In this document: piece after piece, positions 32,218-60,878 of the stretch
Position numbering within the stretch: the first letter of the stretch is position 1
Layout of the letters: each line of letters begins with the position of its first letter
Origin: Bacteroides sp. AN502(2024)
GTDB taxonomy: Bacteria > Bacteroidota > Bacteroidia > Bacteroidales > Bacteroidaceae
Assembly: GCF_041227145.1 (NCBI RefSeq)
Contig: NZ_JBGFSP010000003.1
Span: forward strand, 310,001-374,000
DNA: 64,000 nucleotides
Direction of reading: 5' to 3'
Notes under the pieces: model-generated
Told to the model about the DNA's origin: nothing
The model's input: the letters and a program-made list of their open reading frames with translations, nothing else
The model's database searches: none
Program-made: the position numbers and the translations under genes

Positions 32218-35200
32218 TCACGCGACCTCGACCATCGCTTTGAACGCCGCCACGCTTTGCGCCCGGACGATTTTGCCGCGGAAGGCCAGACGCGAGCCGA
32301 CAACCGCACTCGTGACCGAAGCATCGACATACGCACTCGCATACGACACACCGCCATACGCATTCGCATAGCTGAACCCGCGAAAGACCACACGGCCTGC
32401 AGCGGTGTTTATCCAGTATTTATCACAGTAGTGGGTGCTTGACGAGCCGTTCACGCTGCCGACAGGTATTACATCCATGTACTTGCCATGGGCCACGGCG
32501 GTTGTCCACTGGTCACTCGCGGTCTTGCCTTTTACCCACCTTATGCTGCCGTCAGGCATCCAGATCCGCCATTTGCCTTGGTTACCTGACGTGTTGGGCA
32601 AATCCACACCGTCCATCATGTCGTATTTATTACCGAAAATATCCTCGTAGCCAAGGCAGCAGCTGTTGTTTACCTGTGTGACCGTGACACCGCCGTAATC
32701 GTCCTCGCCACGGTACCAGGCATACTGGTGGACAAGATTGTCGATTAGACTGTTCGTGATGTTGGCGTTCACCGTCTTTGCCTCCTCGTAGCCTATCGTA
32801 TCCGTCATGCCGTGGCTTGCCGTGCCGCCCGTCACGCGGTTGTTCGTGTGCTGGCCGGCTCCGCACTGTTCCTGACTGTCCCTGCGCCCGTACCGTGCAT
32901 AAAACAGGTTCGCTATCCGTGAATGCATCAGCGCATCTATCTGCTGCATTCCGCGTTGTACCGAGTAATAGTGTAAATCCGTCCAGCTCATGCTCGCGGT
33001 GGTACTGCCGCCGGTGGTACAGGCGCGCAGCTTGGAACCTACAACTGAACTGCCAACAACCGCGCACAGATGCTCGTCATTGGGCACCCAGTCGGGTTCC
33101 ATGTCCTCTATTTTATCGCTGTTGGAAAGAACTACGACATCAAATTCCGCCGTGTTAAGCACGGAAAAGTGTAGGGCGGTAGCACCGGCCGGGACATCGG
33201 CAACAAGATACATGCCGGCCTCGAACTTGTTGCTGAGCGTGGGGACAACAATGGAACTGACAATGCCGCCGGATTCATCCGTGAACACGCTGCCGACAAG
33301 GTTCGTGCCGGGAACGCTCGGGAAGCGTACACGCTTGTAGCCGGATACGTTCACCTTACACACCGAATATGCGCCGTCCGTACTGTAGCTGTTCGGCAGC
33401 GTGTCCTTGCCGCTCATGATTTTCCGACCGCGGAGGTAGCCGCCACTCGTGCCTTTAATATCGTCCAGCGTCAGCACCGCGGCTTCGGGGGTGGCTGGCA
33501 TATTATCTCTGCCGTTACTGCTGTAGCAGCTGTAATGTTTCCCATTCAGGTAGTCGTTGATGCCCTTGCTCCAGAAGAAAGGTTCGTACATCATCCAGTC
33601 GCCTTCCGTACCGTCTAACTTGGCAGCGCTGCCGTCCGCGTACTTGTTGCTGTCCGTATCGTCCAACGGGTAGCAGGTCATCTCGCCGTCAAGGTTGTTC
33701 ATGACGGTATCGACGTTCGCGATGTTCACGTTGCGGGTCGTGGGTTTCTTTGTCATCTTGGCGAGCACGCGGTGCCGTTGTTTCAGGATAGCGGCGATAT
33801 GGCCGCTCGCCACGTATGCGTTGCCGTATTTGTATCCGGTCCTGTTGTCGAGGTTGCTGACGTTGGCGTCATCCGCCACGTCATCGTCGAACTCAATCAT
33901 CGTGTAATCCGGCTGGAGGATGTTCAGTTCCGGGAAGTGAGCTTTCAGAACCGTGTACTTTTCGTCATCCATATAGTGCGTCAGGCGCACTGTGCCGACC
34001 AGTCCGCAAGTGTCGGTGGCGTTGCCCTCGGCGTCCACGCCGCCCATGTTTATAAACTTGTTCAGCCACGTGCCGTCATCCTCCCGGTCGATGCCGGTTA
34101 CCCGGATGCGATCAACGTTGGCGCAACGTGACAGCAGGGTTTCCCAATTCAGGCCGGGACAACCGTCCACGATCAGCGTCTTGACATTGCCGTAGCTTTC
34201 CAATGTCAGGCTGCTTGTGGTCAGCTTGCCCAAGTATTCTAACTTAAGCACGGTCAACGTGCCGGGGAGCAAGGCTCTCGTCAGCGGCGCACCCTTGGCG
34301 AAGGTCACGCTCTGAACCCGCGTGCCGCGGGCATCCAGTTCCTCCAGTTTCGTCTGGTTACTGAAGTCGAGTTCCGTACTGGTGTTGCTCCCGGTCTTAG
34401 CCTGTGCCTGGTTACGCACGTTCACCTTCCTTAGTTGGCGGCAGCTGCCGATGTTCAGCCACCAGCCCGTGCTGCCCGTACCAGAGGACTGCAGGTTTAA
34501 TTCGCGCAGGACGGTACACTTGCCCAAATCTAGTCCGTTCTTCAGGTGGTCGGTGGCACCGGTCATGTCGAGCACACGCATGCGGCTCGCGCCGTAGATA
34601 CGCAAGGGGTCATTCACCGTGTAAGCACCCGTGATTTGAAGGACGGCGACCTTTCCTCCTTCCACTATGCCGGTGTTCGCAATGTTGGGGCTGTTGTTCG
34701 TGCCGTAGCCGAAGGCGTACACCTCGCTCGACGTTATCTTCACCACGTCGGCACTGTCGGAGGCGGCACGCGCCATATAGAGGTCGATGTTGTCGCTCGT
34801 GAAGTTACTCGTGCCGTACTTGGCGTCCAGAAGGGCGAAGCGGTTGCGCACGAAATAGCTGCGGTGCGCCGCGTTGCTTCCCTGAAGGGCGTAGATGAAC
34901 GGCCACTTCTTCCCGTAGACCTCCTCCATGTTCGGACGGATATACTTCAGGTAACCGCTCTTGTTATACGCCCGGTCGCTCCAGTTGCCGGCCTGTTCCC
35001 CGTCAAGCATCGACAACACCCTGTCCACGGTCATCTTGGAACGGTACTCCGCCGCACAGGTCTTCAGCTCATCCCGTAGGTTGGCCAGCACAAGGTTCCA
35101 AAGCCAGCTTTCCCTGCCCTCGAAAGCGTATTTGCCGGCCTCCGCGTCCCATGTGTCGCGGTCAAGCGTGTAGTCATAGGCGAGGAAGCAGTCGTTCCTC

Positions 35201-38200
35201 TTGCCCAGCTGCGTGTCGCCGTCATAGTAGGTCAGGTACCAGACAAGACCGTCCCATGTACGCAGAAGAATGTTCTTCGCGCGCTGGTCTACGCTCGCGA
35301 AGTAGTCCGTGTGGATGTAGTAGGTCAGCAGGTGCTTCACATCGAAGTACTGGCTGACCTCGCTCTTGAACTTTTCACTCGCGAAGGTGGAGAGATCGCC
35401 CGCCGTGGCGTTTGCCGGGACGCACGCCCTTATCCAGCCGTACAGGCGTTTAAGGGCTGTCTGCTGCGTAGCGCTCAATCCGGCCCATTTCACGTCATCA
35501 GGCCAGTTAGTCTCCAGTCCGGCATCGAAACTGGAGGCGAGGTCGGTATCGCTCGAACTTTGGAAAAGGCACACTTTCTCGCCGTTGTTCAGCGTCTCAA
35601 GCGTCATCGGACATTCCGGTGCGTAGCCGGACACTCCTTCCATGCCGAACAACTTCCCGCTTTTGCTCTTCTCGTTGTTGAAGTTGTACTGCCCGTAATA
35701 GGTACTCTCGCCGTCGGCGGTCTCCGCACTGAACACGTCGATGGGGAAGCCGTCAATGCTCTGACGGATTCTGACGGCGTTCAGGTCGCCACCCGCCTGC
35801 TCATACTGGTAGCGTTGCGGTGGAGTCAAGAGACCCAGTTCCAGCATCACGTCGTTGTACAGTTTAGCCACACCCGTGTTCAGGGACATGGACGAGTCGG
35901 AATAGTCTGACTTCATGCAAAACAGGTTCATCGGGATACTTCCGGGACGCATCGCGTAATTGCCGCCCACCTGCGCCACGCCGTTTATCTCGAAACTGAG
36001 GTTGGCACCGCCCTTGCTAAAGTAGACGCGGATGTTCTTGCTCGGGTATTTCGTGGAACTGGTGCCCTGAATGCGGATGTAGCAGTCACGCAGGACGAAG
36101 TCATATTCCTTGCCGAACGGGCTGTAAAAGTACACGTCGGACATGAAGTCGGTCTTCTTGTTGTTCGTCTCGTTCACCTCGTCAAGGCCGCCCACGCGCA
36201 CGATGCGCATCACGCCCTTACCCTTGGAGCGCAGCCTGTCGATGTCCACGTCACCCGTGTCGCCTAAGATGTCGTTCTCCTCGTACAGGCGCATCATGTC
36301 ATCCGTGCTGCCGGCGTCCACCATACGGTTCTCCAGTATCTCGTCATCCGTCAGGGCGCGGTCGTAGATACGGATGGTCTTCAGCTCCACGTCGGCCATG
36401 CCGCTGTCGATGGTGATGCCCGCCGGATGGTCCTGACGGAAATAGTAGCTGTTGTCATAGATGTCCGCACCAGCGCGGTTGCCGTTCACGTACAGTTCCA
36501 TCAGGCGGCCTTCCGTGCGCCTGCCTATCACGAAGGCGACTTTCAGCCACTCTCCGGGAGCGAACTTGGTGCCTATCTTGATCTCGCGGCTCGCGTCCTC
36601 TCCGTCCTCGTTCGTGTAGTGCAGGAGCGTACCGGTCTTGATGCTCGCCTCCTCGGTTGTCACGCTCAGGCCCTTGCCGCCGTCCATGCAGCTGATGACT
36701 TCCGCTCCGCGCTCGACCACGTTGCCCACGCGAAACTCTATCTCGATGGTCGCGCCGGAAGCTCCGGCATCGTCTTTGAACAGCTGATACCCGATGACGG
36801 CCTTCGCGCCATTGGTGAGCCTCAGGCTGTCGCCCGTCCAGCCGTTGCTACTCCAATCGAAGCCCTCGAACACGGTATTCACCCCGTTATATTCCCATCG
36901 GGCGGGGTCGCTCTCGCCGTTGCTGCGCCCGGACGGGCTCAGCTTCACCTGTAGCCCGTAAGTGGCCTCGCTGATGTCGATGCCGCTCTCGGACACGTCG
37001 ATGTAGAAGCTGTAGGTGGTGGGGCCGACTTTCAGCTGCATACGCTGCCGCCCCTGTTCCGTGAAACGGTTCCGGTAGGTCTGCGCCGTCCTCGGCACGC
37101 TCACCGTCTGGAGCAACGTGCCGTTCCGGTAAACACCCACGCTCGCGGGGGTGGTGCCTGGGTCATAGGCGGCGAACCTGAACTCGCAGCTCTCGTACTG
37201 TCCCACCTCAATGACAGGGATGAGATGGTCGGCACCGGTAAGGATACGCCCGTCCCGGTGGGTAATCATCAGCCCTACGTGGGGCGCACCGCTGCCGCTC
37301 TTCAGAATGTCGATGTAAACGCTCTCGCTTTTGAGCGTCAGGCCGTCTCCGGCCTCCATCTCGGCCACCATCTGCACCGTGTGGCGGCCCACCGACAGTC
37401 CGCTCATCGGTATGCTGAAGCTGCCGTTGGTCGTGCCGCTGCGGGTCACTGTGTGGGCTTCCTTCTGCCTGCCGTCCACGTACAATGTCACCACCTTCGT
37501 GCCTGTGCCGCTCACGGCGTAGGGGATGGCGGCGGTCTCCTGAGAGCCGTAACCGCCGGAGTTTAGTCCGGAGGCGATGTTGTAGCCGCTGGAAAGTGCA
37601 AGCGTCACGCTCCTCACGCTCACGTAAGCTTGTTTCTTCTGCGCCTTCCCCGTGGTCGGGTCGGAGGTCTCGGCTATCACGTAGATGTCGCTCGTGCCCG
37701 CAAGCAGATATTTCGTAAGGTCAAGCGTGTAGGTGCCCTTGCTCACGTCCTGCGTCGTCTCCGAGTAGGTGGTGGTGGCGCCACGCCTTACCTGGACGGT
37801 AATCCTCGCTTTCTGCCCGGTGCTCTCGCCCTTTCCATCGCCGCTGCCGTACTGGTGGTCGTAGGTATAGGTCAGGCGAACCGCGTCGCCCTCCTTGACA
37901 GTGGGCTTGTCAACGCTCGCACCGAGGACGATCTTCGTGGTGTTTCCGCCGTCTCCGCCACCGCCGCTGCCTGCCGGGAGGTCGACGGCCACCACCTCGA
38001 CGCCGCTCTTGTTCGTAAGGGTAAGGCGCACGCTCGTCTCGTCGTCGCTCAACTCGGCGTTCGCGCCGAAGATGGTGTTGGCGTCCAGCTCACCCAGCTT
38101 CGCCGCCACGGCACGGTTCTCCACGGGGTTCGTGCTTTCGGCGTTCAGGCTCCCGTCAATCTCCAGTTTCTCGATGGTCAGGCTCACGTTGCCCTCCGCA

Positions 38201-39147
38201 TCGGGTGTCTTTTTCTCACCGTTTACGGTCAGGCTCTTCATCGTGCCCGCACCACCGAAGTCCTCCCAACTCGCCGGCTGCTCCCATGACGTCAGGCTCG
38301 TCCCTGTAAACTGCTTGGTCTCCCACTTGCCCTGCGACACCTCGTAAGTGATACAGCGTCCCTTGCCGCGCAGTCTCTCGTCAACGGCGGCGACGGCGGT
38401 CGCAAGGGTATGATAACCGCTGGATAGGGGACTTGTCTCCGTCACGTTCAAAATGTTTCCTCCGCCGCTACCGCTGATTTCAACAAGATCGTTCTCTTCA
38501 TCGCTCCACACGTACAGGCTGCCGCCCATCATGTAGACCTTGTCTTTCCGAAGGGAAAGATCATCGCCGTGGTAAAGCGTGGCAGGAGGAACTCCGTCCA
38601 CGTTCCAGTTGTTATAACACATTCCGTTGAGCTCATACACGAAATCATGCACACTGCGCAGATACACGACACGGCCACCCGGCGCCACGGCTGACTGCCA
38701 CTTCACTATACCGGTTTCCACGATGGCCTCAAAACGGGCCGTGGCACCTTGCAGGGCGGCTTTTGCCGTACTCTCGTAATTTGACTTCACGTCATTGGCA
38801 TCCGTCACGGCTTTATTGGCATTGTTGGCGGCGGTCTGTGCCAGCCCGGCCTTCTCGTTTGCCGTGGCGGCCGCACTGTTGGCTACATTAGCGGCCTCTG
38901 AAGCCCTGCCTGTGGCCGTATCCGCTCTCGTGGCGGCAGCGTTGGCTATCGCGGCAGCGTCTGTGGCCGGTTTGCCCAGCAGGGACAAGGGGGCGCTCAC
39001 CACCTCGTTCCCCCGCAGGGCGGGAAGGCTCTTGACGTTGTCCAGCGAGGTAACCTCGGCCAGTTCGTCAACGCCCTGGCTCTCGGCCTTGATGGCGTTC
39101 AGGATGTCTTTCTTCAATTCGGTTTTTTCCGCGTCTGTCAGTGCCAT
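32218..39147 (-). CDS. Giant tail/receptor-binding protein, DGR target
   Basis: This 2309-residue protein is the last gene of the leftward late block. Regions seen in order are an Ala-rich coiled coil (about 60-140), Gly/Ser-rich and Ig-like beta segments (about 390-640) and a concanavalin/LamG-like domain (about 760-990). A region with CotH-like features (about 1040-1400) and a leucine-rich-repeat-like stretch (about 1520-1720) follow. The C-terminal domain (about 2070-2309) has WRIWMPDGSIRW, which I take as the C-type-lectin/formylglycine-enzyme fold used by DGR variable proteins. Residues about 2250-2290 are the variable region. It probably binds the host surface at the tail tip. Domain limits are approximate. 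Confidence 0.88.
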   Translation of the reverse strand: MALTDAEKTELKKDILNAIKAESQGVDELAEVTSLDNVKSLPALRGNEVVSAPLSLLGKPATDAAAIANAAATRADTATGRASEAANVANSAAATANEKAGLAQTAANNANKAVTDANDVKSNYESTAKAALQGATARFEAIVETGIVKWQSAVAPGGRVVYLRSVHDFVYELNGMCYNNWNVDGVPPATLYHGDDLSLRKDKVYMMGGSLYVWSDEENDLVEISGSGGGNILNVTETSPLSSGYHTLATAVAAVDERLRGKGRCITYEVSQGKWETKQFTGTSLTSWEQPASWEDFGGAGTMKSLTVNGEKKTPDAEGNVSLTIEKLEIDGSLNAESTNPVENRAVAAKLGELDANTIFGANAELSDDETSVRLTLTNKSGVEVVAVDLPAGSGGGGDGGNTTKIVLGASVDKPTVKEGDAVRLTYTYDHQYGSGDGKGESTGQKARITVQVRRGATTTYSETTQDVSKGTYTLDLTKYLLAGTSDIYVIAETSDPTTGKAQKKQAYVSVRSVTLALSSGYNIASGLNSGGYGSQETAAIPYAVSGTGTKVVTLYVDGRQKEAHTVTRSGTTNGSFSIPMSGLSVGRHTVQMVAEMEAGDGLTLKSESVYIDILKSGSGAPHVGLMITHRDGRILTGADHLIPVIEVGQYESCEFRFAAYDPGTTPASVGVYRNGTLLQTVSVPRTAQTYRNRFTEQGRQRMQLKVGPTTYSFYIDVSESGIDISEATYGLQVKLSPSGRSNGESDPARWEYNGVNTVFEGFDWSSNGWTGDSLRLTNGAKAVIGYQLFKDDAGASGATIEIEFRVGNVVERGAEVISCMDGGKGLSVTTEEASIKTGTLLHYTNEDGEDASREIKIGTKFAPGEWLKVAFVIGRRTEGRLMELYVNGNRAGADIYDNSYYFRQDHPAGITIDSGMADVELKTIRIYDRALTDDEILENRMVDAGSTDDMMRLYEENDILGDTGDVDIDRLRSKGKGVMRIVRVGGLDEVNETNNKKTDFMSDVYFYSPFGKEYDFVLRDCYIRIQGTSSTKYPSKNIRVYFSKGGANLSFEINGVAQVGGNYAMRPGSIPMNLFCMKSDYSDSSMSLNTGVAKLYNDVMLELGLLTPPQRYQYEQAGGDLNAVRIRQSIDGFPIDVFSAETADGESTYYGQYNFNNEKSKSGKLFGMEGVSGYAPECPMTLETLNNGEKVCLFQSSSDTDLASSFDAGLETNWPDDVKWAGLSATQQTALKRLYGWIRACVPANATAGDLSTFASEKFKSEVSQYFDVKHLLTYYIHTDYFASVDQRAKNILLRTWDGLVWYLTYYDGDTQLGKRNDCFLAYDYTLDRDTWDAEAGKYAFEGRESWLWNLVLANLRDELKTCAAEYRSKMTVDRVLSMLDGEQAGNWSDRAYNKSGYLKYIRPNMEEVYGKKWPFIYALQGSNAAHRSYFVRNRFALLDAKYGTSNFTSDNIDLYMARAASDSADVVKITSSEVYAFGYGTNNSPNIANTGIVEGGKVAVLQITGAYTVNDPLRIYGASRMRVLDMTGATDHLKNGLDLGKCTVLRELNLQSSGTGSTGWWLNIGSCRQLRKVNVRNQAQAKTGSNTSTELDFSNQTKLEELDARGTRVQSVTFAKGAPLTRALLPGTLTVLKLEYLGKLTTSSLTLESYGNVKTLIVDGCPGLNWETLLSRCANVDRIRVTGIDREDDGTWLNKFINMGGVDAEGNATDTCGLVGTVRLTHYMDDEKYTVLKAHFPELNILQPDYTMIEFDDDVADDANVSNLDNRTGYKYGNAYVASGHIAAILKQRHRVLAKMTKKPTTRNVNIANVDTVMNNLDGEMTCYPLDDTDSNKYADGSAAKLDGTEGDWMMYEPFFWSKGINDYLNGKHYSCYSSNGRDNMPATPEAAVLTLDDIKGTSGGYLRGRKIMSGKDTLPNSYSTDGAYSVCKVNVSGYKRVRFPSVPGTNLVGSVFTDESGGIVSSIVVPTLSNKFEAGMYLVADVPAGATALHFSVLNTAEFDVVVLSNSDKIEDMEPDWVPNDEHLCAVVGSSVVGSKLRACTTGGSTTASMSWTDLHYYSVQRGMQQIDALMHSRIANLFYARYGRRDSQEQCGAGQHTNNRVTGGTASHGMTDTIGYEEAKTVNANITNSLIDNLVHQYAWYRGEDDYGGVTVTQVNNSCCLGYEDIFGNKYDMMDGVDLPNTSGNQGKWRIWMPDGSIRWVKGKTASDQWTTAVAHGKYMDVIPVGSVNGSSSTHYCDKYWINTAAGRVVFRGFSYANAYGGVSYASAYVDASVTSAVVGSRLAFRGKIVRAQSVAAFKAMVEVA
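32278..32398 (-). repeat. DGR variable repeat (VR)
   Basis: Read on the minus strand, this segment aligns without gaps to the template repeat at 58753-58873. In the safely aligned 118 bases there are 18 differences, and all are at template adenines; 12 template adenines are unchanged. The GC-rich block TCGGCTCGCGTCTGG near the end is identical in both and fits an initiation-of-mutagenic-homing site. The last bases (32278-32285) are less certain. It encodes the tip of the lectin-like domain. Confidence 0.93.
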
Positions 39148-39452: not shown

Positions 39453-42400
39453 TTAACTTGAATGGTTCAATATCTGGTAGCGGAAACCGTCAACCTTGCT
39501 GATGAGCACCGTCACGGAATCCCCGGGGAACATCTCGTAGTTCGTCAGTCCCTCGTTATGGTTATAAATGCCTTTCAACGTGATTTTCTTTGAGCCGGAT
39601 CTTACCCTGAAGGTCACTATCGCGGCAAAATCCTCCGGAAGGGTACTCAAACCGAACTGACTCGCCACGGAATGTTCACTCGGTAGCTCCACTTCCGTGC
39701 CGCCGTAATCCGGTTGGTTGTAATACATCAGTATGATATTGTGCTGTGAAAAATCGACTTTGTAGTTGCCGCCGCCGAAAGTCAGCAACTTGGCCTTCGT
39801 GTTAATGAAGGCGGGAGCCATCAGTGCGGCATTGCTGCTGATGCCGTAGTTCTTCGTGCCGCCGCTCACGTTGATAAACAGGCCGTAGTTCGCCTGATCG
39901 AATCCGTATGAGCCGAAAGTGTTGGGATGCTCGTTGACGATACGCCCCACAGCGGTAAAAGCCCCTCCGGCAGTAGACGGTATCACATCGTTGCCGAACA
40001 TCACGTAACCCTCGTTTCCGCCCACGCGGAAAAAATCGTCATAAATGGCAAGCCCACCGCCAGAACCCTGAGCTGTGGCGATTGAGCCGATACGCCCGGA
40101 ACCTATCTCGAAACCGCCGATTTTTCCCTTGTCGCTGTCTATCTCGCCCGTGAACTTGCCGTTCTTCGCCTCGATACTCCCGTCCTCCAGAATCTTGAAG
40201 TTCTCGTTGGCCGTCACGAGCCCCTCCAGCCTGATGTGGTCTCCGGTCAGCTTCACGACGCTGATGTGGTTGCCGTCCGCATCCGTCTCGTCAACGGAAA
40301 CCCCGATAAGCGCCAAATTCCCGTCAGCGTCTTGAGCATAGATGCCGGCACCTTCAGGCTTCACCACAAGACCGGTCTCCTTTAGCATGTTCTCGTCCCT
40401 GTCAAAGACGGCCGCCGTTATCTTCACCAACCGTTCGCTTTGCTCAAACAAGGTCTTATAGCGGTGGGCGAGGCTCTCCACCTTATCAGTCGACAGGACA
40501 AGCATATACAGGTAGATGTCACCGGTAAAGGACAGCTTGAAGTCGCCTGTGCCGTTCCAGAGACCGCTGCAGCTATACTGCACGTAACCGCTGGTGGCTG
40601 CCAGTTCTTCCTCCACATCTATGCTGTTGAAGTTGGCGAAACCGGTCTTGTCCACGTTCTCGAAAACCACGTGCAGGGTGCCGGATTGAGCACAGCGGTA
40701 GAAAAAGGTAAGGAATACAGGAACCGCCTCCTTCTCCCCTTCAACATTCACAGGGAAAGAAGGCACGCTTTTCAGGTCCGCACGTTTCTGGAGAATGTAC
40801 TTGTTACGGATGCGCACCACTGTCCGGCCATCATCAACCGTCACGCTCGCGCCGTCGCCCTTTTTAGTCAGTACGTTGTTGTTCGTCCAGATCCACCGGT
40901 TCCCCGCGAGGAAGAAGACGGTCTCGTTCTCCGTGTTCCACCTCTCCAAACCGTCATCAAAGGCGGGGTTGTTCAGGAAGCCTTTATCCGTGGCGAAATC
41001 ATGGCGCAGGGCGGTCACCGCGCTGGTGATACGTCCCTCGACAATCTCGAACTTGGTCTTGATGTCCTCACCCGTTACTAAAAGGAACGTGCCACGCAGA
41101 TAGGCGTTGTCGCTGTAAAGGCCGTTGCCGCGCGGCTGGTTATCGGCGGGGAACCAGTCGTCGCTGATGCCGTCTAAGTTACCCAAGCGCGCACGGAGAC
41201 AGCCGGTGAGGTTCTTCGCCTTCACGCCGTCCATCACGTCCATACGGGGCTGCCCGTCCTCGGTGGCGGATATGAGTATCAGGTTCTGGCGCAGCGGATT
41301 CTCCGTGTTGCCCATCAGCACGCACTCGTCGCCCGTCTCCGGAAGGGAGGTTTCAAACTCATTCTCACCCACGAGGATTGAATTTTCCTCCACGCCGGCA
41401 ACTTCCACCCAGTAGCTTTTCAGGCTGCCGCCGCTGAACGTGGCGCAACGCATCAGGTCATGCGCCACGAACGTGTTGTCCTGCTCGAACGTAATCTTGT
41501 AGAATCCGTCCTGTTTCTCGACCGCCTTTATCTTGCCGTTGGCGGCACTGACGCAGAGCTGACCGCCCACGCTGCGCACTTTCTCAATAAGCATTTCCAG
41601 CACCACCATGACCTGACGGACCGTCAGTTTGTCAATGGTAAGGTGGGACTGCGCATTCTCCATCCACAGCCTCCAGCCCTCGCCGAAAAGACCGTCCACA
41701 AATTTCGGGCTGCGCAGCAGGGTCTTCACGACCAGCGTCAACAGCTCGGCATTGCCCTTGTCATCGATATTGGCGTTCTCCTCCATGCCGAAGGACGCAC
41801 CTTTCTCAAAGGCGATTTTACCCTTTGCACGGTCGTTCTTTTTCTTGCTCAGGTGCTCAGCCTGGCTCCGGCGGGCGGAAAAGAGGTTGTTGTCGGTCGG
41901 AAGCGTGTTGTCCCAGCTGCGGATGATGTCGGGAAGCCCGATTCCCTCGGTCTTCGCCTTGGTATAACTTTTCAGTTCTCCGATACTGTCGTTTACCTTG
42001 TCGAGTGCCCCTTGTTGTAAGGCGTCACTGATTTCGATGTCCATCCAGCTTGGGAGGTTCACTTTCCGGGTTATCTTCGTGATGCGGCTCTGCCGGAAGC
42101 CTGTTTCCGGAAAGTATTTCTCACTCTCCAGCTTTACCCGCCGCCCCACGTACAGGCTCACGTGGTTATCCTCTATCCAGACATGGTCGGTAGGAGCCTT
42201 ATACACGCTGATGTCCTGCCAGTGTTCCCGATTGTACTGTTCCACCGCTGTCAGGAGCTCCTCCTCGGCTATCGGGTAGTACTCGTCCGGCATGCGCACG
42301 TTCCAAAGAATGTAATGGTCGCCTGGCTTCGGGACAAGGTTACCGCCCGGGAGCTGGGCATCATCGTCATACGGCCAGATGGTGATTATCTCGAATTCCC

Positions 42401-51842: not shown

Positions 51843-51867
51843 TTCTGTTTGGTTTTAAGGGTTGATA

Positions 51868-52320: not shown

Positions 52321-52812
52321 TTGATGTTCTTGTTTTAAGGGTTTATTATTTGTCAGTTCCGGCAAAGGACACTCGCCGTCCCTGCCTAATGTGATTCGTT
52401 TGCCGTCCTTTTTCAGCACGAGGGCGTCATCGTTGGCGCCGATGTCCACCACCGAGACCTCGAATAGTTTGCTTTTGGTGATGGTCGGACTGGTCTGCCC
52501 GGCCACGAGATACTTGCTGTCCTCACTCAACTCTATGATGTCAAGCCCGGCACTGACCATCTTCAGGCTGCCGAACTCGAACTGTCTCTTGCAGCGTTTG
52601 CTCAACTCCGTAGCCTCGTCGAACACCAGCTCGCCGGTCACCTCGTCGTTCTCCACTTTCACGTCCTTCACGTAACCTATCACGTTGCCGCGCTCGTGCA
52701 TGTAGAGCAGCACCGGATTCCGGCAGTATTGCTCCACGTTCATGCCCGCCGTCAGGACGCGTGTCCCGTAACTGTTCAGGCTGTTGTTTGAAATGCGTAC
52801 TCGTTTGCTCAT
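51868..52812 (-). CDS. Head maturation protease with scaffold C-terminus (Mu I-like)
   Basis: From the ATG at 52812 the product is 314 residues. The first about 160 residues resemble prohead serine proteases (NPVLLYMHERGNVIGYVKDV with its His, and LKMVSAGLDIIEL with a Ser). The rest is a charged helical scaffold (KLAKEENAKLQKEKAV). It processes the head during assembly. It is the first gene of the leftward late operon, next to the divergent regulatory region. Confidence 0.8.
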   Translation of the reverse strand: MSKRVRISNNSLNSYGTRVLTAGMNVEQYCRNPVLLYMHERGNVIGYVKDVKVENDEVTGELVFDEATELSKRCKRQFEFGSLKMVSAGLDIIELSEDSKYLVAGQTSPTITKSKLFEVSVVDIGANDDALVLKKDGKRITLGRDGECPLPELTNNKPLKQEHQMESKAIALQLGLPETATDAEIAEKLGEFKLAKEENAKLQKEKAVLTLASITSLVEKAIGEKRIGADKKDEFVSLGKEIGAEKLSSVFAAMSPQVKLSTILGQHGTAKPEITVTYSKLSEVPGDKLAEMREQQPDEYKRLYKAEYGMECEI

Positions 52813-52875
52813 TACTCTGTTTTTTTGCGTTTCGCACTGCAATATTACTGGCTAATCCACTCTCCGCCAAAAAAG

Positions 52876-53016: not shown

Positions 53017-53481
53017 ATGACAAAGGCAGAAACAGAGAAAAAGAAATCACTCGCCAAGTCACTGTACATGGCGGGCATGGAGCAGCAGGAGATCGCCGAG
53101 AAGGTGGAGGTCTCCCGCGTCACCGTTTCCAAGTGGTGTAACGCCGAAGGGTGGAAGGAGGCAAGGGCGGCGAAGAACGTAACACGCCCGGAACTGGTCA
53201 ACAAGCTGCTGCTCACCATCGACACGCTCATCACGCAGGTCAATGAATCCAATGACCCGACGCTCATCGCCGGACTGGGCGACAAGCTGGCCAAGCTGTC
53301 GTCCGTCATCGAGAAGCTCGACAAGAAGGCAAACGTGGTCGACGCCATCGAGGTGTTCATGGCGTTCTCCAAATGGATAGAGTTCCGCTCGTCCATAGAC
53401 CCGGAAGTGACACCAGAACTCATCAAGGCGATCAACAAGTACCAAGACCTCTATATCACTGAACAGATGGGAATAAAGTAG
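53017..53481 (+). CDS. Small terminase subunit-like HTH protein
   Basis: The 154-residue protein has an N-terminal helix-turn-helix (MEQQEIAEKVEVSRVTVSKW) and a helical C-terminal part, like DUF1804 and other small terminases of Mu-like phages. It recognises phage DNA for packaging. It is one base from the large terminase gene. Confidence 0.8.
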   Translation: MTKAETEKKKSLAKSLYMAGMEQQEIAEKVEVSRVTVSKWCNAEGWKEARAAKNVTRPELVNKLLLTIDTLITQVNESNDPTLIAGLGDKLAKLSSVIEKLDKKANVVDAIEVFMAFSKWIEFRSSIDPEVTPELIKAINKYQDLYITEQMGIK

Positions 53482-53482: not shown

Positions 53483-55042
53483 ATGGCAACGGCAGCAGAG
53501 AAAAAACAGGCTTACGAGCAATGGAAGGAACATTGCAAGCGAATTCAATCCATCACGAACACCGCATTGCTCGCAAACGAGCCCCCGGCTGAGCGCGACA
53601 GTCGCATCGCCCGGCTGCGGTCCAACTACGCCGCCTTTTGCGAGTATTACTTCCCGCATTTCCTCACGCTGCGCGACAAGACCACCGGCGAGGTAATACG
53701 GACTATCCACAATGCACCGTTCCACAACGAGGCGGCACGAAAGATACGTTCCACGCCCGACCTCAAAGCGGTGTTCATGTGGCCGCGCGGCCACGCCAAA
53801 TCGACGCACATGGACATCTTCGTCCCCCTGTGGCTGATGTTCCAGACAAAACGGCTCATCAGCTTCATGGTCGTGGTCGGAAAGAGCGAGGACAGCGCCG
53901 TCCGCCTGCTCGGAGACATACAGGCGGAACTGGAACATAACCAGCGCATCATCGCCGATTTCGGGAAACAGCGGGCGTCGGCATCGTGGCAGGAGGGCGA
54001 GTTCAAGGCGGCAAACGGGGTAAAGTTCCTCGCTTGCGGGCGCGGGCAATCGCCCCGAGGGTTACGGGACCGAGAGGCACGACCGGATTACATCGTCATC
54101 GACGACCTCGATGATGACGAGCTATGCCGCAACGAGAAACGCGTGCATGACCTCACGGACTGGGTGAAGGAGGCACTCTTCGGTTCGCTCGACGTGGGAC
54201 GGGGACGCTTCATCATGGTGGGCAACCTTATCAGCAAGACCTCCGTACTCTTCAATATCTCGCGCACGAAGGGCGTGTTCCTCTCCAAAATACAGGCGGT
54301 GGACAAAAACGGCGAACCGGTATGGAATGAGAAGTGGACGAAAGAAGAAGCGCAACTCTACCGGGACTTCGTGGGATACCGGGCATGGGAGAAGGAGATG
54401 ATGCACAACCCCATTGTGGACGGAACCATCTTCCGCGCGGACTGGATACGCTACAAGAAAATATCCAAGCTCGCCAAATACGACATGCTGGTATGCTACA
54501 CCGACCCGTCGTTCAAGTCAACCACCTCCAACGACTACAAGGCATGCCGCCTGTGGGGAAAGCTCGGGACGGAACTACATCTCATCGACTGTTTCGTGCG
54601 CCAGGCAACCGTAGGCGAGATGGTACGCTGGCTGTATGACCTCTACGAACGCACCCGTGATACTGCGGCCGTATCATTCTTCATGGAAGCGAACTTCATG
54701 CAGGACGTCATACTGGACGAGTTCGCCGTGGAGGGCAACCTGCGCGGCTACCAGCTGCCCATCATGCCGGACAAGCGAAAGAAGCCGGACAAGCTCCAGC
54801 GCATTGAGGCGGTCAGCCCGCTATGGGAGCGTGGGTTCGTATGGTACAACGAGAAGCTGAAGGATGCGCCGGACATGCAGGTGGGCATCGAGCAGACGCT
54901 GGCATTAGAGCGCGGAAGCCGGGTGCATGACGATGCGCCGGATGCGGACGAGGGAGCGATATGGATCCTGCAACGGAACACGAGACAGGAGAGTTTTCAA
55001 CCGGTGTTCGGCAAAAGGCCGACCGCCAAAAATATATGGTAA
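53483..55042 (+). CDS. Large terminase subunit
   Basis: The 519-residue motor has a Walker A-like motif (WPRGHAKST, near residue 100), Walker B (YIVIDDLDDDEL, near 203) and a nuclease Asp in VCYTDPSFKST (near 339). It cuts and pumps DNA into the prohead through the portal encoded downstream. Length and motif order are normal for Mu-like phages. Confidence 0.93.
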   Translation: MATAAEKKQAYEQWKEHCKRIQSITNTALLANEPPAERDSRIARLRSNYAAFCEYYFPHFLTLRDKTTGEVIRTIHNAPFHNEAARKIRSTPDLKAVFMWPRGHAKSTHMDIFVPLWLMFQTKRLISFMVVVGKSEDSAVRLLGDIQAELEHNQRIIADFGKQRASASWQEGEFKAANGVKFLACGRGQSPRGLRDREARPDYIVIDDLDDDELCRNEKRVHDLTDWVKEALFGSLDVGRGRFIMVGNLISKTSVLFNISRTKGVFLSKIQAVDKNGEPVWNEKWTKEEAQLYRDFVGYRAWEKEMMHNPIVDGTIFRADWIRYKKISKLAKYDMLVCYTDPSFKSTTSNDYKACRLWGKLGTELHLIDCFVRQATVGEMVRWLYDLYERTRDTAAVSFFMEANFMQDVILDEFAVEGNLRGYQLPIMPDKRKKPDKLQRIEAVSPLWERGFVWYNEKLKDAPDMQVGIEQTLALERGSRVHDDAPDADEGAIWILQRNTRQESFQPVFGKRPTAKNIW

Positions 55043-55044
55043 TC

Positions 55045-55296: not shown

Positions 55297-55706
55297 CGGA
55301 AGAGGATTACAGAGTGGTCATCGGGGATGCGGCACTGAAGGTCATATCGCAGGTCAGCGAGGAAAACCGGGCGAACGCCGAGGCGGAGGCAAGGGAGGAG
55401 ATTTCCGGCTACCTCCGCCCAAAATACGACTGCGGGGCGGTGTTCGCCGCGGAAGGTAACGACAGGAACCGGCTTGTCGTCATGTACACCTGCGACATTG
55501 CGCTATACCACATGAGCGCGGCCATGCCGCAGAAAATGGGAAGCGAAATAAGGGAGGAACGCTACAAACGGGCCATCGAATGGCTGGAGAGTGTACAGGC
55601 GGGCAAAATAATCCCTGATCTCCCGCTTGCCGTGGACGGGAACGGGACACCGACCGGGGACACGTTCGTGTACAGCTCCCAGACGAAACTCAGGCATAAC
55701 TGGTAA
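55287..55706 (+). CDS. Mu gp36-like protein (DUF1320)
   Basis: The 139-residue protein fits the DUF1320 family: MFITEEDYRVVIGDAAL at the start, EEISGYLRPKYD in the middle and MPQKMGSEIREERYKRAIEWLE near the end. Mu gp36-like proteins are head-tail connection components. Its position just before the portal differs from Mu itself. Confidence 0.8.
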   Translation: MFITEEDYRVVIGDAALKVISQVSEENRANAEAEAREEISGYLRPKYDCGAVFAAEGNDRNRLVVMYTCDIALYHMSAAMPQKMGSEIREERYKRAIEWLESVQAGKIIPDLPLAVDGNGTPTGDTFVYSSQTKLRHNW

Positions 55707-55710
55707 TACT

Positions 55711-57036
55711 ATGGATATAAGGAATTTTTTCAGCGGCATTTTTCCGCAGAAGACGGGGAACATGCTGCATACACCACACGGGGACTTCAATCTCGCGAAG
55801 GAGGAAGACCGCAAGCGGATGCGGAAGATGGTCATCGAGCTGCAGCGCACGACAGACGCGCTCACGCGCAAGGACATCAAGGACTGGCGCGATGCATGGC
55901 AGATGGCCATCAACGTGGACAGCCCCAACAGGCAACGCCTGTATGACATATACAGGGATGTGGAAATCGACCTGCACCTGTCCGGATGCGTCGAGCAGCG
56001 CAGGGGCTTCGTCATGGCAAAGTCATTCAAAATCGTAAACGAAAAAGGGGATGAGGACGAAGAGGCATTACATTACTTCGACCAGTCTTGGTTCAAGCAA
56101 CTGCTGCGCTATGCGCTGGAGGCGAACTTCTGGGGACACTCGCTCATCGAATTGGGCGAACTCACCACGGACGGCGACGGCTGCCTGTGCTACTCCGATG
56201 TCACCCTGCTGCCGCGCAAGCACGTCATACCGGAATACGGGCGTGTCATCACCGACCTCGGACAGGACTGGACTACCGGAATCAATTACCGGGAAGCCCC
56301 GTTCTCATACTGGCTCATCGAAGCCGGACGCCCCGATGATCTCGGACTGTACCTCAAGGCCGCTACGCAGACCATACCCAAGAAAAACATGCTGGCGTTC
56401 TGGGACACCTTCGGGGAGATTTTCGGGATGCCCATGCGCATCGCACGGACGACCTCACGGGACAAGAAGGAGATAGACCGGCTCGACCGTATGTTACGGG
56501 AAGCCGGGGCAAGCCTCTCGATGGTTGCCGGACAGGACACGGAAATCGAGTTCGTGGAGAGCGGGAAAGGGGATGCATACAATGTCTATGACAAACGTAT
56601 AGACCGGGCGAACTCGGAGCTGTCGAAGCTCGTCATCGGGCAGACCATGACCATAGAGGACGGCAGCAGCCTCTCACAGTCTGAAACGCACCTTGAGGTG
56701 TTCCAGAACCTCGTGGAAAGCGACTGCGACATACTGCGCGACATCGTGAACAACCAACTCATCCCGCGCATGGCACACCACGGTTTCCCGGTCAAGGGAC
56801 TGCGATTCGAGTGGGACGACGCAGTGGACTACACACCGGAGCAGCAGAAGGCTTACGAGGAGATGGTCCTGCAACACTACAAGGTCCAGCCACGGTATTT
56901 TGAGGACAAGTATGGTATGCCGTGCGAGGAAAAGCCGGAACCGGCCATACCATCGGGAGGAAACGACGGCAACGGCGAAGAGAAACCAAAGGACAATAAA
57001 AAACAACGGAACGCCCTGTCCCGTTTTTTCGACTGA
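55711..57036 (+). CDS. Portal protein (Mu gp29-like, DUF935)
   Basis: From the ATG at 55711 the protein is 441 residues with typical DUF935 stretches: SGCVEQRRGFVMAKSF, SLIELGE-type segments, PRKHVIPEYGRVI and GQTMTIEDGSSLSQSETHLEVF. It forms the dodecameric DNA channel of the head. Its last codons contain the slippery heptamer T_TTT_TTC (57024-57030), four codons from the stop, and the -1 frame leads into the Mu F-like gene. Confidence 0.92.
   Translation: MDIRNFFSGIFPQKTGNMLHTPHGDFNLAKEEDRKRMRKMVIELQRTTDALTRKDIKDWRDAWQMAINVDSPNRQRLYDIYRDVEIDLHLSGCVEQRRGFVMAKSFKIVNEKGDEDEEALHYFDQSWFKQLLRYALEANFWGHSLIELGELTTDGDGCLCYSDVTLLPRKHVIPEYGRVITDLGQDWTTGINYREAPFSYWLIEAGRPDDLGLYLKAATQTIPKKNMLAFWDTFGEIFGMPMRIARTTSRDKKEIDRLDRMLREAGASLSMVAGQDTEIEFVESGKGDAYNVYDKRIDRANSELSKLVIGQTMTIEDGSSLSQSETHLEVFQNLVESDCDILRDIVNNQLIPRMAHHGFPVKGLRFEWDDAVDYTPEQQKAYEEMVLQHYKVQPRYFEDKYGMPCEEKPEPAIPSGGNDGNGEEKPKDNKKQRNALSRFFD
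57024..57030 (+). promoter_or_regulatory. Canonical -1 slippery heptamer at the end of the portal gene
   Basis: The portal codons read CGT TTT TTC GAC TGA, so T_TTT_TTC stands in the correct phase for tandem -1 slippage. After the slip the frame is open through to the Mu F-like protein without a stop. Confidence 0.5.
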
Positions 57037-57101: not shown

Positions 57102-58349
57102 ATGCTGCTCTCCAAAGAGCGGGAGGATGAAGTCCGCAGGGAACTATCATCGCTTTTCGAAGGCATGATGAAGACACTGTACTCGCAGGGCGGCTCGGAA
57201 TTCCGTATCGAGGTGATTGCCGAACCGAAGGTGCAGGAGTTTATAGAGGCGCACGCCTCGGTGTTGGATTCCGGGTTCCGACAGGTGGAGATGTCCGAGG
57301 CCATGCGGCACCGGCTGACACGCTCCGATTACATTTTCTCTGGCATGAAGACGTTTCATGAACTGAACGAGGCGTTCCCGTCCCTGCTGGACGAGAACGG
57401 GAAAAGAAAACCGTTCGAACGGTTTTTGAACGATGTCCGTAAGATAGACGAGACATATAATTCCAACTATCTCCGGGCGGAGTACAACTTCGTGCAGTCA
57501 TCCGCTGAAATGGCGGCCAAGTGGGAACAGTTCGCGGAGGATGGCGACCGCTATTATCTCCAGTACCGAACGGCTCATGACGGCAAAGTGCGACCGGAAC
57601 ACGCCGCGCTGCACGGGGTAACACTCCCCATGAGCGACCCGTTCTGGGAGGAATTCTACCCGCCGAACGGGTGGAACTGCCGCTGCACGGTAGTACAGGT
57701 GCGCAAGTCAAAATATCCGGAAACGCCGCACGACGAGGCGATGGCACTCGGAGAGGAAGCCCTGCAACGGGATTCAAAAGGGATATTCCACTTCAACGCC
57801 GGGAAAGAGCAGAAGACCATGCCGGACTACAACCCGTACACCATACGCCACTGCCGGGACTGCGACATTGCCAAAGGAAAAATCGAACTGGCATTTGTTC
57901 CGGATAACGAACTTTGCGCAGCATGCAAGTTATTGAACAGGTGTGCCGGGGACAGGACAAAGACACAGCGGGCAATCGAGCGAATCCACTACCTCCACGA
58001 GATGGAGCCGCTGCTAAAGAAATCCGTGATGAAAACCGCCGGGGACAAGAACCTGAACGTCGGATTCACGAAATACGGGAACAGCCACTTGTTTTCCGAC
58101 ACGTTCGGACGCTCGCACGTACTATCAAAGGAGGATTTGAAAGATTTGGGCGATGTACTGAGTGCGGCTTCATTCATGGAGGACTCACCGCTGACACATC
58201 CGAGAACGGACGGCATCGAACATTTCTACTATTTCAAAGCACAGATACGGGAGCAATGGGTAAGGCTGAACGTGGCAAAACAGGTTTATCACAGGCCAAG
58301 CGGACAGATTGAGATACGCTATTTCATGTACTCAATCAACGACATATAA
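57102..58349 (+). CDS. Mu F-like minor head protein
   Basis: The first ATG in frame gives 415 residues, with the Mu F core LQYRTAHDGKVRPEHAALHG and FYPPNGWNCRCTVVQV near residues 165-210. Extra Cys pairs follow (HCRDCD, CAACKLLNRCAG). Between the portal stop and this ATG the same frame encodes LSPSDYEGLHRRYAEWLG, which looks like real protein but has no ATG or GTG start. The true N-terminus therefore probably comes from -1 frameshifting out of the portal gene or from CTG at 57033. Mu F-like proteins sit in the head beside the portal and may be ejected. Confidence 0.88.
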   Translation: MLLSKEREDEVRRELSSLFEGMMKTLYSQGGSEFRIEVIAEPKVQEFIEAHASVLDSGFRQVEMSEAMRHRLTRSDYIFSGMKTFHELNEAFPSLLDENGKRKPFERFLNDVRKIDETYNSNYLRAEYNFVQSSAEMAAKWEQFAEDGDRYYLQYRTAHDGKVRPEHAALHGVTLPMSDPFWEEFYPPNGWNCRCTVVQVRKSKYPETPHDEAMALGEEALQRDSKGIFHFNAGKEQKTMPDYNPYTIRHCRDCDIAKGKIELAFVPDNELCAACKLLNRCAGDRTKTQRAIERIHYLHEMEPLLKKSVMKTAGDKNLNVGFTKYGNSHLFSDTFGRSHVLSKEDLKDLGDVLSAASFMEDSPLTHPRTDGIEHFYYFKAQIREQWVRLNVAKQVYHRPSGQIEIRYFMYSINDI

Positions 58350-58454: not shown

Positions 58455-58688
58455 ATGAACAAATTTATCTCTTTTCTTAAACAAAGTAACCGCTACAAGC
58501 ACCTTGTGGGTGGTTTTATCGTCGGAATCTGCGCTTTATCTCCTTGGTGCGCACTGTACTCAGCCGCCGTGGTTGCCTCATGCCTTGAACTCAAGGATGT
58601 GCTGCATGGTTGCCGATGGGACTGCCTCGACTGGCTCGCCATGGTCGCCGGAGGAGGATTTGCCGCACTCTTATGGCTGTTTATCTGA
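58455..58688 (+). CDS. Small two-helix membrane protein, holin-like
   Basis: The 77-residue product has two hydrophobic helices (residues about 17-42 and 62-77) around a polar loop LELKDVLHGCRWDCLDW. Size and topology fit a phage holin, and phage proteins of this LELKD...WDWxDW style are common in Bacteroides prophages. It is separated from the endolysin gene, which is across the divergent region. The role is inferred. Confidence 0.6.
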   Translation: MNKFISFLKQSNRYKHLVGGFIVGICALSPWCALYSAAVVASCLELKDVLHGCRWDCLDWLAMVAGGGFAALLWLFI

Positions 58689-58718
58689 CTGTCTTTCAAA
58701 TAAACGGCTTTTTATGAG

Positions 58719-58726: not shown

Positions 58727-58752
58727 TACCCGGAAAGGCGGAGCTTCCCAAT

Positions 58753-58873
58753 AGGCCGTGTGGTCTATCGCGGGTACAACAATGCGAATGCGAATGGCGG
58801 TGTGTCGAATGCGAATGCGAATAACGATGCTTCGAACACGAATGCGAATGTCGGCTCGCGTCTGGAAATCAAA
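58753..58873 (+). repeat. DGR template repeat (TR)
   Basis: This adenine-rich segment is a run of AAT/AAC codon-like triplets (translated in the VR frame: YNNANANGGVSNANANND). It aligns gaplessly to VR at 32398-32278. It has 30 adenines in the 118 well-aligned bases, 18 of them changed in VR, and no other base differs. It lies 243 bases before the RT start. It is not itself a protein gene. Confidence 0.93.
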
Positions 58874-59115
58874 CAATCGGCGTACAGCACAGGGGACGTG
58901 TCCCCGGAGCGGTGCCGAGGGAGGCAAGCCCCAGCAAAAGCAATTCATTCCAATGTTGCAAGAATTGGAAAGTTTTGGAAAGCTGAAAAATCACGCGTCG
59001 GGTGGAGTTTGGTAGGACGGCAACGTCTCGAAAAAGTCAGGCCCGGAGGAAGGAAGGCCTTTACCTTCCACTATTAAACCAATGACCGAAGCCTATGCGC
59101 AGAGAAGGACATATC
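58874..59115 (+). other. TR-RT spacer, part of the DGR RNA
   Basis: This stretch has no credible gene. It contains a perfect hairpin GGGGAC-GT-GTCCCC (58892-58905) and G-rich segments. In studied DGRs the RNA between TR and RT is needed for cDNA priming. AGAAGGA just before ATG 59116 is a good ribosome site. Confidence 0.55.
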
Positions 59116-60396
59116 ATGGAGGAGGTCATCGAATACCACAACATGTCGGAGGCATTCGATACCGTGCTGCGCGGCTCCAAACGGAAAAAGTCACGGCAGG
59201 GACGTGAGCTGCTTGGAAACAGGGAAAAAGTCATTGCCGAACTTACAGCCGCCTTGGCAGACGGTTCTTTCCGGCTTGGGGGATACCACGAGAGGGACAT
59301 CGAGGAATACGGCAAGAAACGCCGGCTCCAAATACTCTCCATGAAAGACCGTATCGCGGTGTTCGCCGTGATGAACGTCGTGGACAGACACCTGCAGAAA
59401 CGGTATATCCGGACCACGGGGGCGAGCATCAAGGGACGCGGCACGCACGACCTGATGAAGTACATACGCACGGACATACAGGGCGATCCCGAAGGCACAC
59501 GGTACGCCTACAAGTTCGACATCAGGCATTTCTATGACAACGCGCAGCAGGATTTCGTGATGTGGTGCTTCCGCAGGGTGTTCAAGGACGAAAAACTGCT
59601 GGCCATACTCGGCAGGTTCGTCACCATGCTGCCAAAGGGCATCAGCTTCGGGCTGAGAAGTTCTCAAGGAGCGGGCAACCTGCTCCTGTCTGTATTTTTA
59701 GACCATTACCTGAAAGACAGGTACGGGGTCTGTCATTTCTACCGTTATTGCGATGACGGCCTTGTACTCAGTAGAACGAAAGCGGAACTATGGGTGATTC
59801 GTGACATCATCCACGGGCAGATGGAAAAAATCGATCTGGAAGTCAAACCCAACGAAAGGGTGTTCCCCATAGAGGAGGGTATCGACTTTCTCGGATATGT
59901 CATCCATCCTGATTATGTAAGACTGCGCAAGCGCATCAAACAGAAATTCGCCCAGAAGATGCACGAGGTAAAATCGAGAAGAAGGAGGCGTGAACTGGTA
60001 GCGTCCTTTTACGGGATGGCAAAACACGCCGACTGCAATAAGTTGTTTAACAAATTAACAGGCAAAGAAATGAGATCATTTAAGGATTTGAATGTCGCTT
60101 ACAAGCCGGAGGACGGCAAGAAGCGATTTCCCGGAACCGTGGTGAGCATCCGGGAACTGGTGAACCTGCCCATCGTGGTAAAGGACTTCGAGACGGGCAT
60201 AAAGACGGATCAGGGCGATGACCGCTGCATCGTGTCCATCGAGCAGAACGGCGAGCCGAAAAAGTTTTTCACCAACAGCGAGGAGATGAAGAACATCCTC
60301 GCACAAGTGAGGGAGATGCCGGACGGGTTCCCGTTCGAGACCACCATCAAGACGGAGACTTTCGGCAAGGGACGCACAAAATACATATTCACATGA
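59116..60396 (+). CDS. DGR reverse transcriptase with C-terminal extra domain
   Basis: I chose the ATG at 59116 because AGAAGGA stands at the right distance; another ATG is at 59095. The 426-residue enzyme has the active site YCDD (residues 211-214) and the DGR hallmark GxxxSQ as GLRSSQ (179-184). The thumb region ends near residue 310. A C-terminal segment of about 100 residues (VVSIRELVNLPIVVKDFETG to FGKGRTKYIFT) is extra compared with ordinary DGR RTs and resembles a small nucleic-acid-binding phage fold. It copies TR RNA with errors at adenines and directs the cDNA to VR 26.8 kb away. Confidence 0.95.
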   Translation: MEEVIEYHNMSEAFDTVLRGSKRKKSRQGRELLGNREKVIAELTAALADGSFRLGGYHERDIEEYGKKRRLQILSMKDRIAVFAVMNVVDRHLQKRYIRTTGASIKGRGTHDLMKYIRTDIQGDPEGTRYAYKFDIRHFYDNAQQDFVMWCFRRVFKDEKLLAILGRFVTMLPKGISFGLRSSQGAGNLLLSVFLDHYLKDRYGVCHFYRYCDDGLVLSRTKAELWVIRDIIHGQMEKIDLEVKPNERVFPIEEGIDFLGYVIHPDYVRLRKRIKQKFAQKMHEVKSRRRRRELVASFYGMAKHADCNKLFNKLTGKEMRSFKDLNVAYKPEDGKKRFPGTVVSIRELVNLPIVVKDFETGIKTDQGDDRCIVSIEQNGEPKKFFTNSEEMKNILAQVREMPDGFPFETTIKTETFGKGRTKYIFT

Positions 60397-60878
60397 GAAG
60401 AGTGGAAGGAAACACAGGGGTAAGGCTGCTGGAATGCACAAGCCCCGTAAGGGACAAATGGCGCGTCCGCTGGGACGTGCAAGTGAGGGAGGACGGCTCC
60501 GCCTCCTACATGGAAGAAGAATTCGGGCACAAGCCGACTGGCGAGGAAATACGCTCCACGGTCATGGCGTGGTACAACGGAGAAACGGACACAGCCATTC
60601 TCTCTGGGTTCCGCTACAATGACGTGCCGGTATGGCTGTCCCAAGAAAACCAGTTCAACTACAAGTCGGCATACGACCTCGCCGTGCAAACCAACGGCGG
60701 CACGCTACCCGTAACGTTCAAGTTCGGGACGGACACGGAGCCGCACTACCGCACGTTCGAGACGCTGGAGGAACTGACGGACTTCTACACGAAAGCCATG
60801 AGCCACATCCGGACGGCACTCGCTGAAGGGTGGAAGAAGAAAGACGCTTTCGACTTGGAGGTATACCAAGTTGGATAG
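60393..60878 (+). CDS. RT-coupled phage protein of unknown function (DUF4376-like)
   Basis: The 161-residue protein overlaps the RT stop by 4 bases, so it is translationally coupled to it. The C-terminal half (VPVWLSQENQFNYKSAYDLA, TLEELTDFYTKAMSHIRTALAEGW) recalls DUF4376 domains of tail-fibre-associated proteins. No accessory protein of the Avd type is visible, so this could be the DGR accessory factor or a chaperone for the variable protein. I cannot decide between these. Confidence 0.7.
   Translation: MRRVEGNTGVRLLECTSPVRDKWRVRWDVQVREDGSASYMEEEFGHKPTGEEIRSTVMAWYNGETDTAILSGFRYNDVPVWLSQENQFNYKSAYDLAVQTNGGTLPVTFKFGTDTEPHYRTFETLEELTDFYTKAMSHIRTALAEGWKKKDAFDLEVYQVG

Follow-up and report, generated by a model that had tools for sequence, protein, structure and literature searches.

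The window analysed here, a 64,000-nucleotide stretch of Bacteroides DNA, very likely contains a Hankyphage-type diversity-generating retroelement (DGR) housed in a transposable Mu-like prophage and driven by a remote cassette that would act in trans. The identification as a DGR, already made in the initial annotation, is upheld by three features: a template repeat (TR) and a variable repeat (VR) that differ only at adenines, a reverse transcriptase (RT) of the DGR type, and a VR that falls within the C-terminal end of a tail protein. The coordinates also bear out that the TR and RT lie far from the VR (~26 kb) and on the opposite strand, an arrangement termed remote below, as distinct from the adjacent layout in which both repeats neighbour the RT. 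The kind of DGR is known; the remote layout as a lineage trait is new, and the apparent writing of one prophage's VR from the TR of another is the main reason to follow the system further.

Organization of the prophage

The prophage spans 32019–73258 and is flanked by a 4-bp duplication, CATA, at 32015–32018 and 73259–73262. Its ends were set by comparing the close remote prophages of Mediterranea massiliensis and Parabacteroides massiliensis, which are 98% identical to each other over 6.7 kb on the left and 94% over 0.6 kb on the right and are flanked by the duplications CATT and TAAA. The target duplication of Mu itself is 5 bp. The features of the prophage are as follows, with p00 denoting Hankyphage p00.

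32019–64000: portion of the prophage that falls within the window, from shared end sequences
32218–39147, minus strand: target tail fibre/tail tip protein, 2309 aa (phrog_14959; Pfam matches to Laminin_G_3 and, barely, CotH)
32281–32398, minus strand: VR, close to the 3' terminus of the target gene, located by TR/VR alignment and own-genome search
39453–43412, minus strand: minor tail protein, 83% to p00 across the portion that matches
43902–48299, minus strand: tape measure protein
50784–52842, minus strand: two ORFs, for the major capsid protein and a probable head maturation protease
53017–53481, plus strand: probable terminase small subunit
53483–55042, plus strand: terminase large subunit (phrog_38)
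55627–57036, plus strand: Mu-type portal protein (PF06074)
57102–58349, plus strand: Mu F-like minor head protein, MuF (PF04233)
58455–58688, plus strand: 77-aa small protein (phrog_38535), which precedes TR-RT in many relatives of both layouts
58753–58870, plus strand: TR, 118 bp with 30 A; 18 A-only mismatches to the VR
59095–60396, plus strand: DGR-type RT, 433 aa (PF00078, RVT_1; phrog_1423), 73% to the p00 RT
60393–60878, plus strand: DUF4376 protein, overlapping the RT by 4 bp; labelled Avd in a Hankyphage record
61080–61322, plus strand: hp44 homologue, 65% to p00; part of the moved block
61393–62031, plus strand: thymidylate synthase-like protein (ThyA); part of the moved block
62028–62870, plus strand: DNA adenine methyltransferase-like protein (MTase); last gene of the moved block
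63392–63991, minus strand: neck/tail completion protein, where the early side begins
About 67.2–68.0 kb, beyond the window: MuB homologue
About 68.1–70.1 kb, beyond the window: MuA homologue

Read along the prophage, the order is MuA, MuB, early genes and neck, then MTase-ThyA-hp44-DUF4376-RT-TR in reversed orientation, MuF-portal-terminase, capsid, tail and finally the VR, which lies ~260 bp inside the right prophage end. With MuA and MuB homologues, a Mu portal, an F protein and a short 4-bp target duplication, the element is a Mu-like transposable phage, as had been proposed from the sequence. The ORF that follows the tail gene (31940–32221) runs across the prophage boundary and probably does not represent a gene. 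Beside the right end, 27561–31890 on the minus strand encodes Sel1-repeat proteins; the one at 29401–31083 has a caspase-like (Peptidase_C14) domain, and 27561–29387 resembles it by eye.

Template repeat, variable repeat and target protein

The best ungapped TR/VR segment is 118 bp long and contains 18 mismatches, all of them at the 30 TR adenines, while none of the 88 non-A positions differs; the chance of all 18 mismatches landing on 30 of 118 positions is 1.1e-13. This recomputation agrees with the gapless, adenine-only alignment described initially. The 121-bp interval first assigned to the repeats has 21 mismatches, again all at TR adenines (33 A) with 0/88 non-A differences, and its last 3 bp are flank outside the repeat. 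A DNA search of the host's own genome with the TR returned no copies beyond one TR and one VR. The distance from the TR end to the RT start is 224 bp in the window and 191–209 bp in 16 remote relatives. A simple stem scan of 140 nt after the VR (stem of at least 5 bp, loop of 3–8 nt) detected no hairpin comparable to the GC-rich one of BPP-1, and the same scan over a shorter stretch of p00 detected none either. Among relatives, the TR of L013 and L015 (the same as G418_a) carries three A-to-G changes relative to the otherwise near-identical TR of L011, which indicates that the template itself can lose adenines.

The target tail protein shares 70% amino acid identity with the p00 tail fibre, and the VR occupies the 3' end of its gene, corresponding to the C-terminus of the protein. 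The AlphaFold model of this C-terminus has a pLDDT under 30 over the VR, a structure search with it yields only weak carbohydrate-binding-like matches (best E 4e-3), and neither a Pfam match nor a convincing PDB match was obtained for the region. The earlier description of the target as the lectin-like tip of a 2309-residue tail protein therefore stands as to the protein and its C-terminus, while the term lectin-like, in the sense of a C-type lectin fold, is not confirmed by the low-confidence model over the VR and these searches.

Reverse transcriptase and cassette-side proteins

The RT reading frame contains the YCDD and GLRSSQ motifs reported for it, and SQ in motif 4 marks DGR RTs. The top-scoring chain in a PDB search with the RT is 8ub7 (E 1.1e-15), which we take to be the BPP-1 DGR RT, and one RVT_1 protein was found in the host's own genome. 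The partner protein Avd, which many but not all DGRs have, is a helical bundle. The predicted model of the DUF4376 protein is mixed alpha/beta and confident (pLDDT 94.9), it has no PDB match at E 0.001, and its predicted fold does not appear Avd-like. Moreover, the Avd family has no match among the ~7 cassette-side proteins scanned, and the initial description of the DGR as complete is unsupported to that extent.

Two layouts among related phages

The classifier input comprised 137 loci with related RTs (the viral part being the best 80 of 86) and two named phages; 134 loci were examined, and five with too little sequence before the RT were left out. The layouts are adjacent at 63 loci (including the two named phages), remote at 50, remote by the downstream side only at seven and unclear at 14. 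A TR/VR pair is present within the locus at 55/63 adjacent and 0/57 remote loci in a scan reaching at most 10 kb on each side. In 17 of the 30 remote records searched, the VR-bearing tail C-terminus was located 25.4–26.7 kb from the TR on the opposite strand, and the contig of an eighteenth, G015, stops just before the VR. The other 12 (nine virus contigs of 11–33 kb, the whole genomes G008 and G012, and contig G021) returned only a TR-like match or a scrap; within this set, the 85-kb remote contig L139 (G021) has no tail-fibre match and counts against the rule.

The remote layout is a lineage trait and one of two common layouts in the phage group. The gene-order comparison recommended in the initial annotation thus assigns the window to one of these two. 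A strict correspondence between layout and head type was rejected, since L017, L024, L026, L043 and L050 combine window-type heads with the adjacent layout. L115, counted as remote, has MuF and neck genes of the p00 type that precede the cassette on the strand of the RT, and is perhaps a third layout.

Remote TR/VR pairs align in 16 of the 18 cases tested, one of which (L142) is a contig with two cassettes, and eight pairs show no non-A mismatch. The remaining eight aligned pairs carry 1–8 non-A mismatches, of which a foreign TR explains only those of L023 and L059, and these mismatches indicate that some remote VRs have gone without recent rewriting by their own TR. Over a fixed core, VRs lacking any non-A mismatch number 6/11 in remote and 27/34 in adjacent phages, a count that excludes rows with cores of differing length, duplicates and rows without a core; there is no clear difference, and lower homing in remote phages accordingly receives no clear support from it.

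Adjacent phages carry their VR and TR as direct repeats. A motif count over the 1.3 kb available gives a single repeat before the RT at four adjacent loci (L036, L050, L061 and L071), which also lack a TR/VR pair in the locus scan, and the short adjacent contig L100 has a single repeat before the RT as well. Such loci may reflect either deletion between the direct repeats, leaving TR and VR fused and the DGR probably dead, or assembly collapse. The inverted remote layout would be immune to loss by direct-repeat deletion, which would be an advantage.

Layout history and cassette movement

The RT tree of 128 rows shows 12 layout changes and a more careful tree of 53 rows shows nine, the latter built without unlabelled or near-identical rows and without seven that were long or divergent, and carrying a warning from the tool of long branches meeting. 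At least seven changes are forced by well-supported branches in both RT trees, and a single remote clade is rejected on the RT tree (p-AU 4e-6). For window-type heads, the 44-row portal tree shows three changes, at least two of them forced; a single origin of the remote layout is allowed by the quick portal tree and rejected by the careful one (p 0.003). The difference between at least seven changes on the RT tree and two to three on the portal tree indicates that cassettes move between phages, and our reading of these trees is that RT cassettes switched phage more often than backbones switched layout. Additionally, among 12 adjacent phages RT identity tracks that of the tail fibre (r 0.75), whereas in 13 remote phages it tracks the portal (r 0.60) and not the tail fibre (r 0.05, rising to 0.39 once L087 is dropped). 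These correlations hint at co-inheritance of the RT with the tail fibre in adjacent phages and with the portal in remote ones.

Variable repeats probably written by co-resident prophages

In five bacteria that harbour two or three prophages, 5/11 VRs match the TR of another prophage at non-A positions and do not match their own. This count leaves out P. clara, G386 (with one and the same outcome for its two TRs), G135 and G420. Parabacteroides massiliensis SN4 combines an adjacent prophage A with a remote prophage B. Over a 108-bp core, VR_A has 13 adenine mismatches and no others to the TR of B, but 13 adenine and 13 other mismatches to its own TR; reciprocally, VR_B differs from the TR of A at 11 adenines and no other position, against 15 adenines and 10 others for its own TR. 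Mediterranea massiliensis carries nearly the same remote phage together with a different adjacent phage and displays the same reciprocity: its adjacent VR shows 8 A and 0 other mismatches to the remote TR (9 and 6 to its own), and its remote VR shows 9 and 0 to the adjacent TR (10 and 4 to its own). The fifth case, one VR of Phocaeicola plebeius, shows 8 and 0 to the TR of the other prophage over 86 bp before an assembly gap, versus 11 and 5 to its own, while the second VR of this genome fits its own TR (6 and 0).

Two genomes count against cross-writing. Both VRs of Bacteroides finegoldii keep their own TR type (13 and 0, 9 and 0), and all VRs of G312, which has three prophages, fit their own TR type when deleted bases are allowed; two of the G312 TRs are identical, so the copy that wrote those two VRs is indistinguishable. 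The tail VRs of the three prophages (L273–L275) of G312, a two-contig genome of the window's own genus, have base deletions, 21/23 of them at TR adenines in an alignment scored to favour gaps at A. The pattern looks as if a consensus caller had dropped bases variable in the culture, and would mean either active diversification or a sequencing artefact. The remote VR of P. clara agrees with the TR of its own prophage (11 and 0), and the adjacent phage has lost its TR.

A related situation exists within one contig free of N, IMGVR_UViG_2921101260_000002 (L142/L144/L150), where an adjacent and a remote cassette surround one tail gene whose VR shows 5 and 0 mismatches to the remote TR and 6 and 13 to the adjacent one. 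The remote TR core is identical in this contig, M. massiliensis and P. massiliensis, and the VRs are therefore what changed. Outside these genomes, TRs of other loci fit better than the own TR for the VRs of L076 (12 A and 1 other versus 12 and 5), L114 (13 and 0 versus 13 and 2) and L075 (11 and 0 versus 11 and 1). The double lysogens derive from a search of 399 genomes of the family, seven of which have at least two RTs; the RTs of G420 are 41–43% identical, and the second RT of G135 is 44% identical. No further double lysogens were found in 393 genomes of the order, 158 of the window's own genus, where G862 is judged from coordinates to be a second copy of M. massiliensis, and 61 of the genus of G418. 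No report of DGR exchange between prophages occurs among the matches listed in a mainly open-access literature.

Foreign TR signatures in VRs fit homing in trans between prophages, and retrohoming probably did the swapping. The swap is reciprocal in two genomes, as a double crossover would leave it, and M. massiliensis has a 44-nt identical run after its tail genes, downstream of the VR; both observations would suit ordinary recombination or gene conversion between two tail fibre genes. We nevertheless regard such an origin as unlikely, because the exchanged stretch in P. and M. massiliensis is the repeat alone and the upstream flanks stay with their own tail genes. Over the 150 bp upstream, the longest shared exact run is at most 17 nt in P. 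massiliensis and 11 nt in M. massiliensis, and 20–21 nt are shared across the 3' edge of the repeat, lengths that are short for RecA-type exchange. With two possible last writers for each VR, reciprocity itself has a 1-in-4 chance in any one genome.

The non-A mismatches in some remote pairs would also agree with the window DGR being a relic, its remote cassette no longer reaching the VR and its adenine-only pattern being old; this is improbable given 0/88 non-A differences in the window, an intact RT with YCDD and the retention of the remote layout across many divergent phages. Assembly errors between similar prophages are an improbable source of the swaps: the genomes are drafts, probably short-read, both reciprocal cases apparently come, to judge by strain name, from one laboratory group and the P. 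plebeius case enters an assembly gap inside the VR, but a 5' chimera would need joining within 9–11 shared bases with differences 1–3 nt away (P. and M. massiliensis), and a single contig without N also has a VR that agrees with the more distant of its two TRs.

Proposed mechanism and significance

In the trans-acting model favoured here, the RT would copy TR RNA from the plus-strand cassette, inserting random bases at adenines, and the cDNA would take the place of the VR close to the right prophage end. The tail protein tip would thereby be recoded, probably altering receptor choice. Any VR whose ends match could be targeted in trans by the TR and RT, so that distance and strand would matter little. 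In this phage group the block TR-RT-DUF4376-hp44-ThyA-MTase occupies either the position just behind the tail fibre gene, as in Hankyphage, or, turned over, a position between neck and MuF ~26 kb off, and cassettes have moved between these two kinds of phage. A cassette working in trans implies that co-resident prophages can overwrite each other's VRs, and on the sequence evidence co-resident cassettes seem to compete for them. Diversification may be ongoing in the window's strain and could then affect host range.

More broadly, we consider it likely that DGR cassettes of gut transposable phages are trans-acting pens shared by all related prophages of a cell, that receptor-binding tips pass from one phage backbone to an unrelated one without tail-gene recombination and that a cassette need not adjoin its target. 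Surveys that seek a VR near the RT miss the remote class, and the available part of a global survey says so of remote targets (PMC8144416). The window offers a DGR whose only found target is 26 kb off, and its comparison with adjacent relatives constitutes a natural experiment on cis versus trans action. If prophages do write each other's tips, tail-tip diversity would be a shared resource of the lysogen.

Comparison with known systems

The closest described system is Hankyphage p00 (BK010646; PMC6199706, PMC12135933, PMC12629997), which in the accessible portions of these sources is, like the window element, a transposable Bacteroides phage with a DGR aimed at the tail C-terminus. The p00 tail protein is ~2250 aa and that of the window 2309 aa, and the two phages share the RT, DUF4376, hp44, ThyA and MTase genes (65–82% amino acid identity). 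They differ in layout: the VR and TR of p00 are 255 bp apart on one strand, whereas those of the window are ~26 kb apart on opposite strands. Relative to p00, the block TR-RT-DUF4376-hp44-ThyA-MTase is relocated and turned over. A late-region inversion was rejected as the origin of this difference, a moved and turned right-end cassette block being the simplest reading. The large tail genes and DGR block are 65–83% identical to p00 and some small tail genes 48–55%, while head and early genes are mostly 27–39% identical (50–52% for two small early genes) and the p00 capsid and protease genes have no match in the window prophage, a pattern that points to a mosaic. The best single place of any phage record covers 40% of the 22-kb query at 76.5% identity, and no phage record covers 80% of it in one place. 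Membership of the genus Hankyvirus is given as intergenomic similarity over 70% to p00 in the accessible part of PMC12135933; with coverage as a proxy for that similarity, the window prophage appears related to p00 and outside the genus. According to the same part of that source, Hankyphage VRs diversify in B. thetaiotaomicron culture.

The DGR of Bordetella phage BPP-1 shares adenine-specific rewriting of a tail protein tip, and as described in the available part of PMC3240598 it has an adjacent layout, Avd and a hairpin after the VR, none of which was found in the window DGR. A VR far from the RT is also described, in the sections accessible, for Quimbyvirus (PMC8008677), Bacteroidota phages (PMC12629997) and Trichodesmium (PMC8867640), with the far VR of Quimbyvirus on the other strand as in the window (PMC8008677). 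In those systems, as far as these sections go, the far VR is additional to one close by, whereas the sole VR found in the window is far.

In a reconstituted E. coli DGR, the accessible text of PMC12875486 reports that a cassette carried on a plasmid edits targets at numerous sites in the chromosome, which establishes trans action of a DGR, and that target orientation relative to replication has an effect. That is a laboratory system, described in this text without exchange between natural prophages, whereas the relatives of the window are natural prophages. To this published trans action the present comparison adds that layout does not tie a cassette to its target.
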